Of a stretch of DNA of 26,389 nt, positions 7,090 through 24,875 are shown in pieces (position 1 is the first letter of the stretch; every line of letters begins with the position of its first letter). Below the pieces are notes generated by a model. It was not told where the DNA came from. It was given only the letters and a program-made list of their open reading frames with translations, and did not search any database. The position numbers and the translations under genes were made by a program. Origin of the DNA: a virus; IMG/VR virus record IMGVR_UViG_3300010397_000082, positions 1-26,389 of that record. The stretch is one strand, 5' to 3'.

Positions 7090-7720
7090 CGGCCACCGCC
7101 GTCCGGATCCGCCAGTTGTGGACGAACACCGGGGACGACACGGGTTCCGCTCCGAGGTCGATCTCCTCGCCCGTGGGCGTCTGGATCACCCCCGATGCGC
7201 CAGACTTGGCCCGCCAGTAGAACCACGCCGCGAGGAAGCGGACCTGCTCATACACGTCCGCGGTCCACGTCGGATGGCCCACGAACGAGGTGATCCGGAG
7301 ATCGAGCGGGATCGCCCCGTACCGCCGCCAGAACATATCGAGGTTCTTGTCCCACCACATCGGGTCAGCCTTGAACCAGTCGGCCCGGTTCGTGTCGAAC
7401 GCCGCGAGCTGGATCGTCGTCGAGATGTCCGGGTTCCTCCGATCCGGGAGGAGCCAATAGCCCTGCGTCTCGGTCAGGGCCACCCCGTTGAGGGTGACGA
7501 CCCGCGTCGCGTCGGTCTTGGGGATGTCGGTGATCTGGACGAGCACCTGACCGTCGGTCGAGTAGTCGCGCGTCGTGTTGCTGGCGTAGCTGAACGTCCG
7601 GCTCGTGTCGTGCTCGGCCTGCGCCGTGCCCGAGTTGATGGCGCTCGTGAGCAGGGCGTCGTCACCCGAACCCGTGAGCCCGAGGTAGGTCTTGAGTTCA
7701 GACAGCGTTGGCGCGGGCAT
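7082..7720 (-). CDS. Head-tail connector / adaptor protein (gp6-like)
   Basis: 212 residues, longer than a minimal HK97 gp6 adaptor. The start MPAPTLSELKTYLGL with GDDALLTSAINSGTAQAEHDTSRTF is the usual helical N-terminus of the connector family (phage gp6-like, which forms a ring beneath the portal). It continues with a beta-rich insert (QVLVQITDIPKTDATRVVTLNG) and a C-terminal helix (YEQVRFLAAWFYWRAKSGASG). It overlaps the upstream glycosyltransferase by 23 bases. Together with the gp10-like and terminator genes downstream it completes the neck, so the glycosyltransferases sit exactly between capsid and neck genes. Confidence 0.75.
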   Translation of the reverse strand: MPAPTLSELKTYLGLTGSGDDALLTSAINSGTAQAEHDTSRTFSYASNTTRDYSTDGQVLVQITDIPKTDATRVVTLNGVALTETQGYWLLPDRRNPDISTTIQLAAFDTNRADWFKADPMWWDKNLDMFWRRYGAIPLDLRITSFVGHPTWTADVYEQVRFLAAWFYWRAKSGASGVIQTPTGEEIDLGAEPVSSPVFVHNWRIRTAVAGV

Positions 7721-8960
7721 GGGGTTCCTCGAGGAGGGCCAGGAACTCCGCGATCGCGAGGTCCCAGTTGAACGAGCGCTCGACGTGCCTGCGCCCGGCC
7801 GCGCCCATCTCGCGCCTCCGGGCGGGCTTGGCGAGCAGGCCGAGGACCGGCTCGACGAAGCCCTTGGGATCGGGCACCGCCCAATCCATCCCGTAGGTCG
7901 AGTGGTAGCGGACCGGCTCGCCGTAGCTGTCGTGGAGCGGCGGGATCATCACCCCGCCGGGGCCGATGACCTCGGATTCGGCGGCCCAGTCCGACGACAC
8001 GACGGGCACCTCGCAGGCCAGCGATTCCGCGAGGGTCAGGCCGAAGCCCTCGCCGCCGGTCGTGGTCATGTACAGGTCGGCCGCGTTGTACAGCGCGACC
8101 AGCTTGTCGGTTGAGAGCCCGACGAAGGTGTCGGTCATGCCCGTGAACTGGACCCGCTTGTTGTCCCGGATCTCGGGCGGCATCCGCATCAGCTCGCCGA
8201 TGAGGTCGGAGCCCAGCGGGTCGTTGGCGGCGCAGTGGAGGATCAGATCCACCTCCGGATCCGCGAGGGCGATCGGGACGAACGCCTCGATGAGCGCCGG
8301 GTAGAACTTGCGGAGCGCGTTCCGGTCGGCGCGCAGGATGACCTTCCGCCCGGCCAGCCCGAAGTAGTCCTTGCAGGCGTCCTTGGTCCCCAGCCTCCGT
8401 CCGTCGACGATCACCGGGTCGCGCAGGCTGACCGGCCGGAATACCTGGGTGTCCACGCCGTGGTAGATCCGCGGCACGTACCGCCCGATGTGGGCCGAGA
8501 TGACCCGCTGCCCGTAGTCGCTCATCGCGACCGGCTGGATCAGGCCCCACACGTCGCGCCATGCCGGGGTCAGGTTGTCGCCCTCGATCGGGCAGTAGTG
8601 GAGGATCGGGATCGACCGCCACGCCGTCAGCTTGTCCGGTGTGGCCTGCCCGATGTGCGACAGGAGGCCCGTCATGTCCGAGATGACCAACCCCGCATCG
8701 GGCTTCCAGTCGTCGAGCGGATCGAGCCGCCGCCAGAACCCGCCTCCGATGACCTCGGCGCTGACGTTGCCGCCGTAGTCGTCACCGAAGATGCCCGCCG
8801 GCCAGACCCGCCCCGCCAGTGGTCCCTTGACAGGCTCGCCGCGATGGTTGACCGCGAGGACGCGCACGTCCAGCCCCGCCGCGAGGAAGCGGTTGGCGAG
8901 CTCGACCGTGACCGTCCCGAACCCGGTTGCCGAGTAGTGGCCCCAGATCAGGAGCCTCAC
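7698..8960 (-). CDS. Glycosyltransferase, GT4 / GT-B type
   Basis: 420 residues. The N-terminal Rossmann-like start is MRLLIWGHYSATGFGTVT, with a glycine-rich loop and strand DVRVLAVNH. The C-terminal half contains NKRVQFTGM, then a donor-binding segment GGEGFGLTLAESLACEVPVVSS, with glutamates near residues 304 and 312 that fit the E-x7-E motif of GT4 enzymes using nucleotide sugars. It acts in the host cytoplasm. Its start overlaps the stop of the preceding glycosyltransferase (ATGA), so the two are coupled. Together with the other transferases and the FkbM enzyme it may glycosylate capsid or other virion proteins; the target is an inference. Confidence 0.88.
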   Translation of the reverse strand: MRLLIWGHYSATGFGTVTVELANRFLAAGLDVRVLAVNHRGEPVKGPLAGRVWPAGIFGDDYGGNVSAEVIGGGFWRRLDPLDDWKPDAGLVISDMTGLLSHIGQATPDKLTAWRSIPILHYCPIEGDNLTPAWRDVWGLIQPVAMSDYGQRVISAHIGRYVPRIYHGVDTQVFRPVSLRDPVIVDGRRLGTKDACKDYFGLAGRKVILRADRNALRKFYPALIEAFVPIALADPEVDLILHCAANDPLGSDLIGELMRMPPEIRDNKRVQFTGMTDTFVGLSTDKLVALYNAADLYMTTTGGEGFGLTLAESLACEVPVVSSDWAAESEVIGPGGVMIPPLHDSYGEPVRYHSTYGMDWAVPDPKGFVEPVLGLLAKPARRREMGAAGRRHVERSFNWDLAIAEFLALLEEPHARANAV

Positions 8961-9979
8961 GGGAGCACCTGCGCGAACAGCGCCCGGATGGCCTGCTCCT
9001 CCTCATCGAAGTCGACGACCTCTCGGAAGCGGGCGGCCATTGCATCGCCCATCCGAACCCGTGTCTCGGGGTCCAGTGAGCGGACCACCCGCCGGATGTC
9101 GTCGGCCGAGCGTCCGGTGATGTCGAACGACGTGACGCCTTCCTGCCAGAGCGGCCCGGCGAGCTGGTTGGCGTAGTAGGACTGGAACCCGATGACCGGA
9201 CGCCCGACGGCGGCCCAGTTGTGAATAACGTGCCCGAACCCGTCGCTCCATTGCTTCGTGTGCCACGCGATGTCCGAGGCCCGCATCCGGTCCCCGACCT
9301 CGGCGCAGCGGGCCACGTCCTCGGTGGCGTACTCGTCGCGCGGGAGCTGCCCGTACGAGCCGTAGATGCGCCAGTCGATCTCGGTGGCGAGGTGGGCGAC
9401 CTCCCGGAACAGCGCGTAGCCCTGCGGGTTCTCCGGGAAGCAGTTGACGAACGATGAGACGACCGTCCGCTCGTGGTCCTCAGGTGGTTCGTGGCGGAAG
9501 TCGTCGAGGCTGAACTCCTGGTGGACGACGACGTGCGGCTTCGGGATCGGCCCCGGCATCAGGCTCGTCACGATCCCGAATGCCGCGAGATCCCAGCGGT
9601 CCTCGGCCATGTCGATCGGTGAGAAGCGGACGTTGCCGAGGTGGATGCCGAACGTCGCCCCGACCTCCGAGGCGAACCGCGCCAAGCCCTCGTGGTTGTG
9701 GGCGACCGACGCGATCACGATGTCCGGTCGGAGATCCCGCGCCTCCTGGAGGCTGAGGAGCTTGTGGAGCCGCCCCGGGTGGGACTTGTCGGCCCGAACG
9801 TCCGTGTCCGTGGGCAGCGGATCGAGGTACTGGCGGGCGACCCGATCGCCGTGCGCCGCCCGTTCGAAGTTCCAGTAGCCCTCGGTGAACCAGTCCATGC
9901 CGATGGGCCTGTAGAGCGTCCAGCCGAGCCGGGCGCAGAGGAGTTCGAGGCTCTCCCAGAGGTCGTGGTGGTGGACTAG
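8957..9979 (-). CDS. Glycosyltransferase, body of a gene split from its start by an HNH insertion
   Basis: The recognisable protein begins LVHHHDLWESLELLC and continues through RPIGMDWFTEGYW to the stop at 8957, about 340 residues. It shows a GT-B-like C-terminal half (DGFGHVIHNWAAVGRPVIGFQSYY, then a helical end). No ATG, GTG or TTG lies in this frame near the conserved start; the first in-frame codon upstream that could initiate is ATG 10138, antisense to the HNH gene, which would add about 55 unlikely residues. Joining the 14 bases 10510-10497 to 9974 gives an uninterrupted 343-residue protein starting M-K-V-L-V-H-H-H-D-L-W, with its ATG overlapping the previous gene's TGA. The frame is therefore whole except for a 522-base insertion. 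Whether the gene is dead, spliced or expressed from another start cannot be told from the sequence. Confidence 0.75.
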   Translation of the reverse strand, partial: LVHHHDLWESLELLCARLGWTLYRPIGMDWFTEGYWNFERAAHGDRVARQYLDPLPTDTDVRADKSHPGRLHKLLSLQEARDLRPDIVIASVAHNHEGLARFASEVGATFGIHLGNVRFSPIDMAEDRWDLAAFGIVTSLMPGPIPKPHVVVHQEFSLDDFRHEPPEDHERTVVSSFVNCFPENPQGYALFREVAHLATEIDWRIYGSYGQLPRDEYATEDVARCAEVGDRMRASDIAWHTKQWSDGFGHVIHNWAAVGRPVIGFQSYYANQLAGPLWQEGVTSFDITGRSADDIRRVVRSLDPETRVRMGDAMAARFREVVDFDEEEQAIRALFAQVLP

Positions 9980-9980
9980 T

Positions 9981-10006
9981 GGTAGTCCGCGAGAACGCGG
10001 ACTACC
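9981..10006. other. Perfect 11-bp hairpin at the left end of the HNH element
   Basis: GGTAGTCCGCG at 9981-9991 is the reverse complement of CGCGGACTACC at 9996-10006, with a four-base AGAA loop on the plus strand. It lies one base inside the left direct repeat. There is no T-tract on either side, so it is not a typical terminator. It could be an element end recognised as a structured DNA, part of an RNA, or an operator. Confidence 0.7.
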
Positions 10007-10028
10007 TGGGACCCTCCGTTGTTGGTGA

Positions 10029-10059
10029 CTGACATGGGAGGTGAGCGCTCCTGTATAAT
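10029..10059 (+). promoter_or_regulatory. Promoter of the HNH gene, likely leaderless
   Basis: CTGACA at 10029-10034 (five of six matches to TTGACA) and a perfect TATAAT at 10054-10059 are 19 bases apart. The ATG of the HNH gene is at 10067, seven bases after the -10 box, so transcription would start at or next to the start codon and the message would be leaderless. The palindrome GAGCGCTC at 10043-10050 sits between the two boxes and is a possible operator. Confidence 0.6.
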
Positions 10060-10066
10060 CTTGGTG

Positions 10067-10501
10067 ATGGTTAGGAAGTACGAGACGGACGAGGAACGGG
10101 CCGAAGCGCGACGTCAGGCGCTCTATCGGTACAACCATTCCGAGAAGGGCCGGGCCGCGCAGGCTCGTCGCGAGGCTGGCCCGTTGGCTCCTCTCCGATA
10201 TGCCCGCTATCGAGAGACCGCGAAGTACGAAGCGACCCAGCAGCGATTCAAGGACAGCGGCGGTCGGAACCGGCTAGCCGTGAAGCACCGCGCGGTCGTC
10301 CGAGCCGAACGGCCCGAACTTCTGGATGCATGGAAAGCCGTCGGTGCCGCTCTCCGCAGCGGACACCTAGTCCGCCCGCAAGGCTGTCAGGGATGCGGTC
10401 GCGAACTGCACCTCGTGGCGCATCACCACCTCGGCTATGCGCCCGAGCACTGGCTGGACGTTGAGTGGCTCTGTCGGCGATGCCACAAGAAGGCGCACTA
10501 G
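10067..10501 (+). CDS. HNH endonuclease-like zinc protein
   Basis: 144 residues from ATG 10067 (MVRKYETDEERAEARR). The first two thirds are basic and helical with many Arg, Ala and Glu, likely binding DNA. The last 38 residues hold CQGCGRELHLVAHHHLGY...WLCRRCHKKAH, i.e. C-x2-C, His-rich centre, then C-x2-C-H, the pattern of HNH nucleases of phages, with the zinc knuckle holding the beta-beta-alpha metal fold. It is on the opposite strand to every neighbouring gene, ends five bases before the end of one glycosyltransferase and lies within the broken start of the next. An Asn at the classical central position is not obvious, so catalysis is not proven. Likely the mobility function of the insertion it sits in. 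Confidence 0.75.
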   Translation: MVRKYETDEERAEARRQALYRYNHSEKGRAAQARREAGPLAPLRYARYRETAKYEATQQRFKDSGGRNRLAVKHRAVVRAERPELLDAWKAVGAALRSGHLVRPQGCQGCGRELHLVAHHHLGYAPEHWLDVEWLCRRCHKKAH

Positions 10502-10510
10502 CACCTTCAT
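10497..10510 (-). other. Displaced 5' end of the split glycosyltransferase
   Basis: The minus strand reads ATG AAG GTG CTA GT at these positions. The ATG shares ATGA with the stop of the preceding glycosyltransferase, the same coupling seen at nearly every junction of this operon. Read on without removal of the insertion, this start gives a 47-residue peptide that ends at a TAG inside the HNH gene's complement. Joined to 9974 it opens the full glycosyltransferase frame. Confidence 0.7.
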
Positions 10511-11532
10511 CGAAGGAACTCGACCCACTGCGTGCCGACCGTGGCGACATCGAACAGGTCGATGGCGCGCTCACGAACACGATCGCTCAGACCGGCAGCG
10601 ATCTCGGTTTCGTCGAGGAGCGTCCCCGCGACCGTCCCTGCTGTCAGGGCATCGTCGTAACCGTGCGGCCATGCGATTTCGTGACCCTCGAACAGCGCGG
10701 ACGGGCCACGCCATGCCTCGGGTCCCATGCTCACCATCGGCACCCCCGACAGCATCGCCTCGATCAGGCCGAGGGTGTAGGACGCGGGCGTGGTGCCTGT
10801 GTAGAGGTACGCCCGGAGGTGGCGGAGGTAGTCGAGCATCGCCGAGTACGAGAGGAGCCCGAGCCCGCCCATCTCCTCCGAGCCCGCCCCGGCCGGTTGG
10901 ACGGGGAGCCCTTCGGTGGCCGCCACCCAGAACCCGTAGCCGCAGGCGTCCCCGCGCTGCTTCATGTGCTGGGTGATGTTGCCGACGACCAGGTTGTCCC
11001 CGATCCACGGGCCGTAGTCGTCGGGGTACTTGCCGAACCGGATCAGGGCGTCCTGACCGGCCCATTGGCCGATGGCCTCGAAGTAGCGCCGTTCGGCGGG
11101 GGAGTAGCGGACGATCTGGAGGCCCTGCCGATGCAAGGGCTCCATGACCATCTCGAGCCTCGGATCGGACTGGCCGCAGGTGCGCCAGATGACCCGCTTG
11201 TGCTTGATCCGGTCCCACTGACCGACGATCCACTGCTCGGGGAAGTGGTGGACGATGACCGCGTCGGCCCAGTCGATGATGTTGTCGTGGAGCGCCGCCT
11301 TGCCCCAGTCGATCGCCGGGCCGGGCTCGCCGCGAGCCGCACGGACCTCTTGGAGGCGGGCCACGAGCTCCGGGTGATGCGGAGCGTCCGGGAGCGCGGG
11401 CCGGATACCCTCACCCGAGCGGGACGGGACCTCGTAGCCGCCCGGAGCGAAGGTGTCGAAGCCAAGGTCGGTGAACATCCGCAGGTCGTCGTATTCGGCA
11501 ACGGCGTGACTTGCGAGCAACAGGATGTTCAT
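10507..11532 (-). CDS. Glycosyltransferase (GT-B-like)
   Basis: 341 residues, start ATG 11532 overlapping the capsid-like small frame's stop (ATGA). The start MNILLLASHAVAEYDDLRMF is a Rossmann-type strand-turn-helix. Residues about 90-120 (ADAVIVHHFPEQW, HKRVIWRTCGQ) and the C-terminal segment YTGTTPASYTLGLIEAMLSGVPMVSMG (about 244-270) match the donor-binding region of GT-B glycosyltransferases, with a glutamate in LIEAM in the usual place. The acceptor is not known. It is the first of three transferases in one coupled string, and its stop overlaps the ATG of the displaced start of the second. Confidence 0.8.
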   Translation of the reverse strand: MNILLLASHAVAEYDDLRMFTDLGFDTFAPGGYEVPSRSGEGIRPALPDAPHHPELVARLQEVRAARGEPGPAIDWGKAALHDNIIDWADAVIVHHFPEQWIVGQWDRIKHKRVIWRTCGQSDPRLEMVMEPLHRQGLQIVRYSPAERRYFEAIGQWAGQDALIRFGKYPDDYGPWIGDNLVVGNITQHMKQRGDACGYGFWVAATEGLPVQPAGAGSEEMGGLGLLSYSAMLDYLRHLRAYLYTGTTPASYTLGLIEAMLSGVPMVSMGPEAWRGPSALFEGHEIAWPHGYDDALTAGTVAGTLLDETEIAAGLSDRVRERAIDLFDVATVGTQWVEFLR

Positions 11533-11705
11533 CCCGGCAGACGCCAGCGCTGTTCTCTCGGCAGCAGCCTACGTGTGTGACGCAATGGCCTGAACGGAAC
11601 GACAGCCTCGGCAAGGCGACCGGCGTTCACGAGTAAGGTGTTGCCGACGTCGTAGATCTGCGCCAGCGTGTAGAGCGTGCGCGTATATGGGCCGAAGTCG
11701 TTCAC
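11529..11705 (-). CDS. Capsid-like fragment (58 residues) coupled into the glycosylation cassette
   Basis: The frame starts at GTG 11705, overlapping the FkbM stop (GTGA), and stops at 11529, overlapping the next ATG (ATGA). Its first half, VNDFGPYTRTLYTLAQIYDV followed by GNTLLVNAG, resembles the major capsid protein of this same window, which has VRDFGFARATATLYTIAQIA followed by DIGNQLLRQSNG (around 13570-13450). After that the two diverge and the remaining 25 residues are Arg-rich and unlike capsid. It looks like a truncated copy of a capsid gene segment, from this phage or a relative, retained between two cassette genes. Because both ends are translationally coupled, it may be translated. 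Function unknown; it could equally be a recombination scar. Confidence 0.55.
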   Translation of the reverse strand: MNDFGPYTRTLYTLAQIYDVGNTLLVNAGRLAEAVVPFRPLRHTRRLLPREQRWRLPG

Positions 11706-12400
11706 TTCGGAGCCGCCCAGAACCAGCCCGTCGCCCCGACCGGCTTGAACGTCAGGACGTGGCTCTCGCCGAGCATCCGCTCCAAGCCTGGAGGGCCGGG
11801 ATCCCCGTGGTATTCGCCGAAGATGTACGGGATGTCGTTGACGAGCGGGCTGTCGAGCAGGCCCCACTCCCCGCCTTCGCAGTCGGTTTTCAGGGCTGCG
11901 ACCTTGCCCCCGGCCAGCTTCACGAGCTGGCGCAGGCTGTACTTGCGGACCTTGCGCGTCTCGTACTCGGGGAAGTCGAGGTTGCCGATGAAGCGGTCGT
12001 TGTGGGACAGGCCGATCTTGACCTCGGACGTCCCGACCGCGCCGTGGACGACCGTCGCATTGAGTTGGTTCTCGGCGATCGTGGCCTCGATCAGCGCGAT
12101 GTTCTCGACGAGCGGCTCGACGATGATCGCGCTGGCCTTCGGGTTGTCGAGCAGGACCGCGAGGCTGACCGTGCCGATGTGGCCGCCGACATCGAGGAAC
12201 ACGCCGTCGATGTACAGGTCGGCGAGGTGGTATTCGTCGTCGCCCTTCTGCCACGAGTTCGACAGCGTGGACAGGACCACCGATAGGTCCGACGTGTGCT
12301 CGCGGATGGCGATCCTGCCCGCATGAGCGCGCGGCGAGGAGATGTCCTCGAACCCGTCCCCGACGCCGTTTACCCGTTGGTCGACAAAGGTGCTGTTCAT
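11702..12400 (-). CDS. FkbM-family SAM-dependent methyltransferase
   Basis: 232 residues from ATG 12400, which overlaps the previous stop as TGATG; a GTG two codons upstream (12406) is possible. Residues about 66-77 (DGVFLDVGGHIGTV) are SAM-binding motif I, followed by AIIVEPLVENIALIEATI, where the glutamate of VEP should hold the SAM ribose, and VVHGAVG. Later come LKTDCEGGEWGLL and an IFGEYHG segment, both typical of FkbM enzymes, which methylate hydroxyls of sugars and related compounds. Adjacent glycosyltransferases suggest it methylates a sugar attached to a virion protein. The substrate is not shown by the sequence. Confidence 0.85.
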   Translation of the reverse strand: MNSTFVDQRVNGVGDGFEDISSPRAHAGRIAIREHTSDLSVVLSTLSNSWQKGDDEYHLADLYIDGVFLDVGGHIGTVSLAVLLDNPKASAIIVEPLVENIALIEATIAENQLNATVVHGAVGTSEVKIGLSHNDRFIGNLDFPEYETRKVRKYSLRQLVKLAGGKVAALKTDCEGGEWGLLDSPLVNDIPYIFGEYHGDPGPPGLERMLGESHVLTFKPVGATGWFWAAPK

Positions 12401-12726
12401 CAGCACTCACCGGGACCGGCGACAGGCCGGTCTGGGTCAGGCGTGGTGATCGTCGTGGTGATGGGGAAAGCCGGACTGTGGAAGGTGGCGCTGTTCTCGC
12501 GGATCAGCGTGTCGCGTAAACGGTGGTAGTCAGCTTCCAGTTCGATCCAGATGGCCCGTGCGAGGCTCGCCATCGGATAGTCGTCTTCTGCCGCCGCATC
12601 GCGGAAGTCGTCCGGTTCCTCACCGGGGCCGAACCATTGCTTGAACGGACTCCACGCCATGTGTTCGAGTTCGGCCGGGCCGACCATCGCTAGGGCATGA
12701 GCAAGTTGCTCGACGGTAATAGTCAC
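12400..12726 (-). CDS. Hypothetical protein at the head of the glycosylation cassette
   Basis: 108 residues, start GTG 12726 with GGAGG nine bases upstream, stop TGA shared with the ATG of the FkbM gene. The N-terminal helix (VEQLAHALAMVGPAELEHMAW) is followed by an acidic stretch and a helix with ASLARAIWIELEADYHRLRDTLI. The tail is Thr/Pro-rich (TTTITTPDPDRPV). No family recognised. It is the first gene after the two hairpins behind the capsid gene, so it opens the cassette's transcription unit or is read through at low level. Confidence 0.65.
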   Translation of the reverse strand: MTITVEQLAHALAMVGPAELEHMAWSPFKQWFGPGEEPDDFRDAAAEDDYPMASLARAIWIELEADYHRLRDTLIRENSATFHSPAFPITTTITTPDPDRPVAGPGEC

Positions 12727-19743: not shown

Positions 19744-19753
19744 AATGCACGGT

Positions 19754-20047
19754 ATGGCAACCATGAAGCGCCGCGTGATCTACCTGTCGGATGAAGATTG
19801 GGCGACGGCCCAAGAGGAGGCGAAACGATACGACTCGTCGATCAGTGCCTACTTCCGATCGCTAGTCGTCGGCGGTCGGGTCATCCCGATTGCGGTTCGG
19901 GATACGCTCCAGCCGCTCCGGCCGAACCCAACGGTTGATGCTGCGGGCCGAGGTTCGGATGATCCGCACTTCGGCTCGTTCAACCCATTGGACCGTTTCC
20001 GCTCCAAGCCGTTCACGCCTGCTCCGAAGCCGGGGCAGAAGCGATGA
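19754..20047 (+). CDS. Ribbon-helix-helix-like DNA-binding protein (putative repressor)
   Basis: 97 residues from ATG 19754 (MATMKRR); ATG 19763 and upstream ATG 19745 or GTG 19730 are alternatives, and none has a Shine-Dalgarno, which fits leaderless translation. Residues 4-45 read KRRVIYLSDEDWATAQEEAKRYDSSISAYFRSLV in the pattern strand, helix, turn, helix of the ribbon-helix-helix (MetJ/Arc) fold. The rest is Pro-rich and likely disordered. It is on the strand opposite to the structural operon and lies behind overlapping palindromes. It is probably a small regulator, by analogy with the fold. Coupled to the next gene by ATGA. Confidence 0.6.
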   Translation: MATMKRRVIYLSDEDWATAQEEAKRYDSSISAYFRSLVVGGRVIPIAVRDTLQPLRPNPTVDAAGRGSDDPHFGSFNPLDRFRSKPFTPAPKPGQKR

Positions 20048-23950: not shown

Positions 23951-24589
23951 TCACGCGCTCAGCCCCAAGACTTCCTGCGAACAGCGTGTCGCGGCGATCT
24001 CGCAGTAGCGCTCCTCGATCTCGATGCCGATGGCCTTGCGGCCGAGCAGTTTCGCGGCGACGAGCGTCGTGCCAGATCCAAGGAATGGATCGAGGATGGT
24101 TCCGCCCTCGTCAGTCAACTTGACGATCGGAGCAGGACAGATCGGCTGCGCCCACGCGTGGAGTCGCTTCGCCCAGTCCTTGCCAATCCGCCCGAGGTCA
24201 TCGTCTAGGATCACCTTGCGGTCGGCTCGAGCGCCCTTCGTGAACCACGCAACGGGCTTGAAGTTGACCTTGACTCCTAGTCCGTGGAGCAGCGGCGTGA
24301 TTCCGCCGGCGTTCGGCTGAATGCATAGCCAGTGGAATCGGAGCGACACGCCGAGCGATGCCAACACAACCGGCAACTGTTGGTGCCCGCAATAGGCGAA
24401 CAAGGACGAGCCGCCGCGCATCAGGCGCGGGGCGGTCGCCGCCAGATCACCCCAGATGTGGTCGAACTCGTGGGCATATGGCGGATCGGTCAGCACGAGA
24501 TCAACCGACTCATCCGCGAGCCTCGGCATGACATCTGCGGACGCGCCGTGGTAGATCGTCACCAGGTCGTCGGAGTAGTAGGGCGTCAC
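23951..24589 (-). CDS. DNA N4/N6 methyltransferase, beta order of motifs
   Basis: 212 residues from GTG 24589, which overlaps the stop of a tiny membrane protein gene. The catalytic DPPY motif is at about residues 35-38 (VDLVLTDPPYAHEFDHIWG) and the SAM-binding DPFLGSGT motif near the C-terminus (167-174), so the order DPPY first, then FxGxG, is that of the beta class (N4-cytosine or N6-adenine). The spacer between them is about 130 residues, too short for a large target-recognition domain. It may protect phage DNA from restriction or act as an orphan methylase. No nuclease gene is adjacent. Target sequence not predictable. Confidence 0.88.
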   Translation of the reverse strand: MTPYYSDDLVTIYHGASADVMPRLADESVDLVLTDPPYAHEFDHIWGDLAATAPRLMRGGSSLFAYCGHQQLPVVLASLGVSLRFHWLCIQPNAGGITPLLHGLGVKVNFKPVAWFTKGARADRKVILDDDLGRIGKDWAKRLHAWAQPICPAPIVKLTDEGGTILDPFLGSGTTLVAAKLLGRKAIGIEIEERYCEIAATRCSQEVLGLSA

Positions 24590-24687
24590 CGCTGCGCCGT
24601 CCCGATGAGGATGGCCAGACCCAAGATCACGAGTGCGAGCCCTCCGAGGATGAGGTTGTGGGTACGGGAGAGGCCCGGCTTCGTCAC
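24586..24687 (-). CDS. Very small single-span membrane protein
   Basis: 33 residues from GTG 24687, overlapping the previous stop as GTGA, stop TGA overlapping the methylase start. Basic N-terminus (VTKPGLSRTHN) followed by a single hydrophobic helix LILGGLALVILGLAILIGTA and QR. It is one of three short membrane proteins in a row. Together they could be a holin set, with a basic short one able to act as an antiholin or spanin-like factor, but there is no sequence proof. Confidence 0.5.
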   Translation of the reverse strand: MTKPGLSRTHNLILGGLALVILGLAILIGTAQR

Positions 24688-24875
24688 GGTCGCCAGCCCG
24701 AGAAGAACGCCCACAGACCGGCAAGGATGCCGATGGCCCATGCGAACTGCTCAAGGAACCCGCCCACGGCCTCGGCCGGTGGCACGTTGACCGCCTTGAG
24801 GAGGCGGGCCACGAGGATGCACACGAGGCCGATGACGACGGCGATGATGACCGCGAGGACGATGCGCTCGAGCAT
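24684..24875 (-). CDS. Small membrane protein (holin-like)
   Basis: 63 residues, ATG 24875. Two hydrophobic spans: residues about 3-25 (RIVLAVIIAVVIGLVCILVARLL, partly read in pieces) and about 42-58 (FAWAIGILAGLWAFF), separated by a short polar turn with VPPAEA. Size and layout match class II holins, which permeabilise the membrane for lysis. Adjacent to two other small membrane proteins. Confidence 0.55.
   Translation of the reverse strand: MLERIVLAVIIAVVIGLVCILVARLLKAVNVPPAEAVGGFLEQFAWAIGILAGLWAFFSGWRP

Follow-up and report, generated by a model that had tools for sequence, protein, structure and literature searches.

A candidate free-standing HNH homing endonuclease gene inserted antisense at a glycosyltransferase gene overlap in an uncultured tailed phage

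The glycosyltransferase cassette

The DNA analyzed here, from now on called the window (26,389 nucleotides, one metagenomic contig from IMG/VR), is that of an uncultured tailed phage. Near the capsid gene, positions 7698-12406 (minus strand) harbor three glycosyltransferase-like genes and a possible FkbM methyltransferase, the match to which (E 6e-4) is below cut-off. At the joint between two glycosyltransferase genes, GT1 and GT2, an HNH endonuclease gene is found on the opposite strand. The features from GT1 to GT2 are:

10507-11532, minus strand: GT1, the upstream glycosyltransferase-like gene, the TGA of which (10509-10507) overlaps the former ATG of GT2 (10510-10508)
10500-10510, minus strand: stranded native 5′ end of GT2, ATGAAGGTGCT (M-K-V-L), identical to the GT2 start in the close relative L001
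10067-10501, plus strand: HNH endonuclease gene (144 amino acids) with an AHHH motif and two CxxC/CxxCH zinc ligand pairs, its stop TAG inside the right ACTAG (see below)
10054-10059, plus strand: TATAAT, a −10-like hexamer, 7 nt before the ATG of the HNH gene
9979-9996, minus strand: native GT2 codons GTT CTC GCG GAC TAC CAC (V-L-A-D-Y-H), within the 522-bp insert proposed earlier and out of frame with the rest of GT2
9971-9978, minus strand, placement ambiguous: eight extra bases, TAGTCCAC, recognized by comparison with relatives
8957-9970, minus strand: body of GT2, a conserved GT-B fold glycosyltransferase without a good start codon, 97% identical to L001 at the DNA level

Neither GT1 nor GT2 has a match in Pfam or PHROG, and no relative of either was found in the cultured phage records searched; GT2 is present in about 60 uncultured phage contigs. 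A structure model of GT2, made from the intact copy in L001 and 41 relatives, has a GT-B fold (pLDDT 94) with MshA as best match in the PDB (E=6.6e-11). Its first strand comprises residues 2-5 and is followed by Asp6, which like His8 is invariant in the 41-sequence alignment. In the relatives the N-terminus reads M-(K/R)-V-L-A-D-Y-H-H-H-D-L-W. A contig of a Candidatus Nanopelagicales MAG (L202) contains a GT2 relative (35%) with an intact start, which is a hint of actinobacterial hosts.

Elsewhere in the window, a small ORF (19748-20047, plus strand) with a weak NikA-like (ribbon-helix-helix type) match adjoins the portal gene in opposite orientation to its neighbors, and positions 23954-24700 (minus strand) encode an N6/N4 DNA methyltransferase (Pfam PF01555, E 5e-19).

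The HNH gene and its product

The HNH reading frame is intact, the invariant residues being C107, C110, H119, H120, L130-V132, W134, C136, C139 and H140, and it ends just past the last zinc ligand region, as does the related frame in contig L061 described below. The protein matches the endonuclease family PHROG 2340 (E=4.4e-16); the match to the HNH families of Pfam is only below cut-off. In the structure model the HNH part is confident, and a comparison of the whole model with the PDB yielded nothing significant. The GC content at third codon positions is 0.715, the lowest among the window genes checked (0.84-0.94 for the others); the codon composition of the HNH gene is foreign. Among the matches listed, the nearest full-length HNH protein in viral contigs is 43% identical. 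The relatives in cultured phages are encoded by stand-alone genes, many of which adjoin polymerase, helicase or ATPase genes.

There is no close ribosome-binding site before the ATG of the HNH gene, and no full promoter for it turned up in a simple sigma-70 scan. Judged from the TATAAT so near to the ATG, its mRNA is probably leaderless and transcribed from a promoter of its own.

Empty joints in related contigs

GT2 relatives from IMG/VR and one bacterial MAG, with amino acid identities from 99% down to 28%, were collected and 61 contigs were compared. As probed with the HNH profile, the GT1/GT2 joint is without HNH gene in 60 of them; the single exception is L061, and a profile match recorded in L179 is the same locus as that in L061. 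The HNH gene is thus patchily distributed, the homologous sites in the relatives being empty. In 36 of the 37 relatives checked, the stop of the upstream frame and the start of GT2 overlap as ATGA or GTGA, and the flanks in the window have kept the same overlap (10507-10510). Alignment with these relatives therefore indicates that the GT2 gene has received the HNH gene as an insertion at its start, in opposite orientation. The original prediction had placed an insertion there, in this orientation, and had noted that the ATG at 10510-10508 overlaps the upstream TGA; the empty joints bear out the former and the sequence confirms the latter.

Boundaries of the insert

The six codons for V-L-A-D-Y-H share up to 16 of their 18 bases with relatives at the homologous position, which was reached by none of 20,000 shuffles. 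Since these native codons occupy 9996-9979, the approximate end of the HNH-bearing segment on that side is 9992-9997. The eight extra bases set V-L-A-D-Y-H and H-H-D in different frames. This scar is known from one metagenomic contig; as an exact string it has no second copy in other IMG/VR contigs. The boundaries given here would imply CGATGAAGGTGCTCGCGGACTACCAC as the sequence of the empty site.

Two inverted repeats are found at the junctions:

9981-10006, no strand: perfect 11-bp hairpin, GGTAGTCCGCG-AGAA-CGCGGACTACC, identified in the sequence
10489-10508, no strand: 8-bp inverted repeat with one mismatch, GAAGGCGC-ACTA-GCACCTTC, across the other junction

In the hairpin, the arm at 9981-9991 belongs to native GT2, and the arm at 9996-10006 repeats it in inverted form. 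Likewise, TAGTCC within the eight extra bases is native GGACTA inverted. Both the inverted copy and the extra bases could stem from one fold-back or template-switch event at this junction. An IS200/IS605-like end hairpin was considered and rejected: with one of its arms being part of the GT2 coding sequence, the hairpin is not the end of an element. The repeat at 10489-10508 is probably due to chance, since 178 such inverted repeats are present in the window, and it was given no weight.

A second occupied joint

L061 is from a distant phage with the same glycosyltransferase gene order as the window. Its HNH protein is 43-45% identical along its length to that of the window, and the two genes agree in joint and orientation:

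L061:2477-2935: HNH reading frame, the last codons and stop of which (H-R-R-stop) are borrowed from the antisense of GT1

The GTG start of this frame is preceded at a distance of 5 nt by GATAAT. On either side of the insert is a copy of the 7-bp sequence CTCATCG (L061:2443-2449 and 2922-2928); the repeat consists of the overlap between GT1 stop and GT2 start in duplicate. The two neighbors are intact, GT1 ending with W-A-A-Y-L-R and GT2 starting with M-R-V-L-L-D-A-H-H. L061 is the cleanest view of an undamaged insertion; its empty site was seen in no near-identical relative.

Among the matches listed, the window and L061 are the two occupied joints. Neither an HNH profile from both nor the L061 HNH protein alone revealed a new one. 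The sequences make a common origin of the two HNH genes at this joint likely, which is short of proven because there are just two occupied joints and the identity of the HNH proteins is no higher than 43-45%. A more specific proposal, which we put forward tentatively, is an HNH-only mobile gene specific for the ATGA overlap of paired glycosyltransferases: its antisense insertion would duplicate the 7-bp overlap and so spare both genes, as in L061, and imprecise repair would kill the second gene, as in the window.

Fate of the second glycosyltransferase

In the window the start of GT2 is broken. Relative to L001 the GT2 body differs by 29 synonymous and 4 nonsynonymous codon changes, from which it follows that GT2 was under selection until recently. 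In the frame of H-H-H-D the sole upstream ATG, GTG or TTG start is the ATG at 10138, inside the HNH gene in antisense. A second ATG (10035-10033, minus strand) opens a peptide in the native frame, MSVTNNGGSQVVRVLADYH (M-S-V-T-N-N-G-G-S-Q-V-V-R-V-L-A-D-Y-H); this frame overlaps the upstream region of the HNH gene and ends at the TAG 9978-9976 within the eight extra bases. With no plausible start and the frame from ATG 10035 terminated by TAG, the GT2 product as read from the contig is probably inactive or much reduced in activity, unless the eight bases are an assembly error. A programmed frameshift across these bases was considered and dropped, no slippery heptamer being seen.

It is unlikely that the HNH insertion provided GT2 with a new start at ATG 10035, yielding a working fusion broken only by the 8-bp scar, or that the eight bases are an assembly error and GT2 is intact. 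The ATG is open and in the frame of V-L-A-D-Y-H, and the GT2 body has been under purifying selection versus L001, but in the contig as assembled the frame runs into the TAG, the Shine-Dalgarno spacing is poor, such an ATG is possible by chance, and no second copy of the locus was found in IMG/VR for comparison.

Replacement of a patch relative to a close relative

The window and L001 differ in one patch around the HNH gene:

9958-10740, no strand: mosaic patch versus L001, covering the 3′ end of GT1, the HNH gene and the first GT2 codons

On both sides of the patch (GT1 up to about 10740, GT2 from about 9958) the two contigs are about 98% identical. Within it L001 is without HNH gene and has a divergent GT1 3′ end: the stretch of ~780 bp in the window replaces a divergent stretch of ~330 bp in L001 (about 2610-2943). 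Neither version is clearly ancestral. Nuclease genes, HNH endonucleases included, have been documented at boundaries of genetic exchange of this kind (PMC10448857; PMC2988022). A replaced patch containing the HNH gene is what co-conversion during homing would be expected to leave, the recipient, window or L001, being ambiguous.

Two distant phages sharing joint and orientation, and an HNH divergence resembling that of GT2, could also mean that the joint has long housed the HNH gene, which would have been passed on vertically, retained because it serves the phage (e.g., in packaging) and lost from most relatives. We consider this quite improbable: it needs losses in all other lineages, which nevertheless retain the exact ATGA overlap, and it has against it the foreign composition of the HNH gene and the close relative L001 without one.

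The ACTAG repeats and the 522-bp segment

The original prediction was that hairpin, promoter and HNH gene form a minimal mobile element of 522 bp flanked by a target duplication, the removal of which restores GT2 exactly. The repeats in question are:

9975-9979, plus strand: left ACTAG, present, not above chance
10497-10501, plus strand: right ACTAG, present, not above chance

Both copies exist, with the stop TAG of the HNH gene inside the right one, and removal of 9980-10501 indeed gives an open in-frame join, MKVLVHHHD. This join does not restore the ancestral gene, however, since A-D-Y including the invariant Asp6 is missing from it, and the native codons reside inside the 522 bp. The empty site so predicted, ATGAAGGTGCTAGTCCACCACCAC, should differ from the occupied one by exactly 522 bp and contain a single ACTAG, but no relative carries ACTAG there. 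When pairs of 30-nt windows ~520 bp apart were drawn at random from this contig, 65% of the pairs had a 5-mer in common, and 36% of all pairs had one at a spacing that is a multiple of 3. The ACTAG repeat is therefore within chance and does not qualify as a five-base target duplication. Also the L061 insert at the same joint has different boundaries and a different repeat, and the hairpin-bearing unit was not found elsewhere among the matches listed, no such hairpin being seen upstream of the HNH gene in L061. The 11-bp hairpin and the TATAAT are there as described, but one arm of the former is native GT2. The 522-bp element is thus very improbable. It takes more than a direct repeat and an in-frame join to define the ends of an element.

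Removal at the RNA level is likewise very improbable. That a self-splicing intron (or another form of RNA removal) in the minus-strand transcript, with the HNH gene on its opposite strand, restores GT2 has in its favor a minus-strand RNA somewhat more stable than shuffles (z −1.96) and the occurrence of antisense endonuclease genes in protist group I introns. Against it, in line with the earlier remark that intron signals are lacking, no Rfam intron family matches at any E up to 5, the core of a group I or II intron would not fit into the only about 70-90 nt outside the HNH frame, and removal at the repeat never restores the native N-terminus, the eight extra bases remaining out of frame. An intein is ruled out by the location of the HNH gene on the strand opposite to the host genes.

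Relation to known HNH genes

The insert had been regarded as belonging to no known class. Stand-alone HNH insertions are known, however (PMC2988022; PMC11855218), and a homologous HNH gene is present at the joint in L061. Within or between conserved phage genes they include T4 mobA (topoisomerase gene) and mobE in nrdA of Aeromonas phage Aeh1 (PMC2988022). In both cases, as in the window, a stand-alone HNH gene splits a conserved gene without intron or intein, and co-conversion is expected (PMC2988022). They differ in that the HNH gene of the window is antisense and located at a glycosyltransferase stop/start overlap rather than in genes of nucleotide metabolism or replication, and in that the GT2 start is apparently lost, whereas there the host gene is split into two working parts. 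The likeness is one of gene arrangement.

The ShiLan element is an HNH-only insertion in methylases of actinobacteriophages (PMC11855218). It shares with the window an HNH-only insert in a phage gene, the lack of splicing machinery, a proposed leaderless expression and a patchy distribution (PMC11855218). Its HNH gene is a sense-strand gene in a different frame from the host gene, whose own frame is open throughout, in contrast to the opposite strand and the broken host N-terminus in the window. A ShiLan-type element was rejected for the window because the HNH gene is antisense and the native codons for V-L-A-D-Y-H are in another frame than those for H-H-D.

The HNH proteins of the Bacillus phages Moonbeam and Grass, of Vequintavirinae and of Vibrio phage phiVC8, encoded beside DNA polymerase, helicase and ATPase genes, have a related domain (about 30-48% identity). 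Most of these proteins contain an N-terminal CxxC zinc finger that is missing from the window protein, and, where annotated, their genes have the same direction as the neighboring genes, unlike that of the window.

HNH endonucleases of Skunavirus have been sorted by insertion site (PMC12724721). The window resembles the cases in PMC10448857 and PMC12724721 in having a nuclease gene in a mosaic patch between close relatives and the same site re-occupied. In the literature searched here, no description of such a case for these glycosyltransferase cassettes was found.

Proposed mechanism and implications

From these comparisons we propose with good confidence that a free-standing HNH homing-type endonuclease gene, probably with its own leaderless promoter, has invaded the conserved ATGA overlap of GT1 and GT2 in antisense, nuclease activity and homing being deduced from sequence. 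By analogy with MobA and MobE (PMC2988022), a co-infecting phage with an empty joint would have this joint nicked or cut by the HNH enzyme and would acquire the HNH gene together with flanking sequence during repair. In the window, a fold-back (template switch) during insertion or afterwards would have rearranged the right junction, leaving an inverted copy of GCGGACTACC and eight extra bases and thereby destroying the start of GT2.

The locus has, as far as sequence can tell, the features of a free-standing HNH homing endonuclease gene. It adds one more case to a type of phage mobile gene already known and is not a new class of transposable element; slightly unusual are its antisense position and the repeated use of a stop/start overlap by HNH genes in distant phages. 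The same gene overlap is re-occupied by an HNH gene in distantly related uncultured phages, one copy sparing the neighbors and one damaging them. This gives a clean pair of empty and occupied sites for studying the entry of free-standing HNH nucleases into new sites and extends the possible targets of these enzymes to a phage glycosyltransferase cassette.
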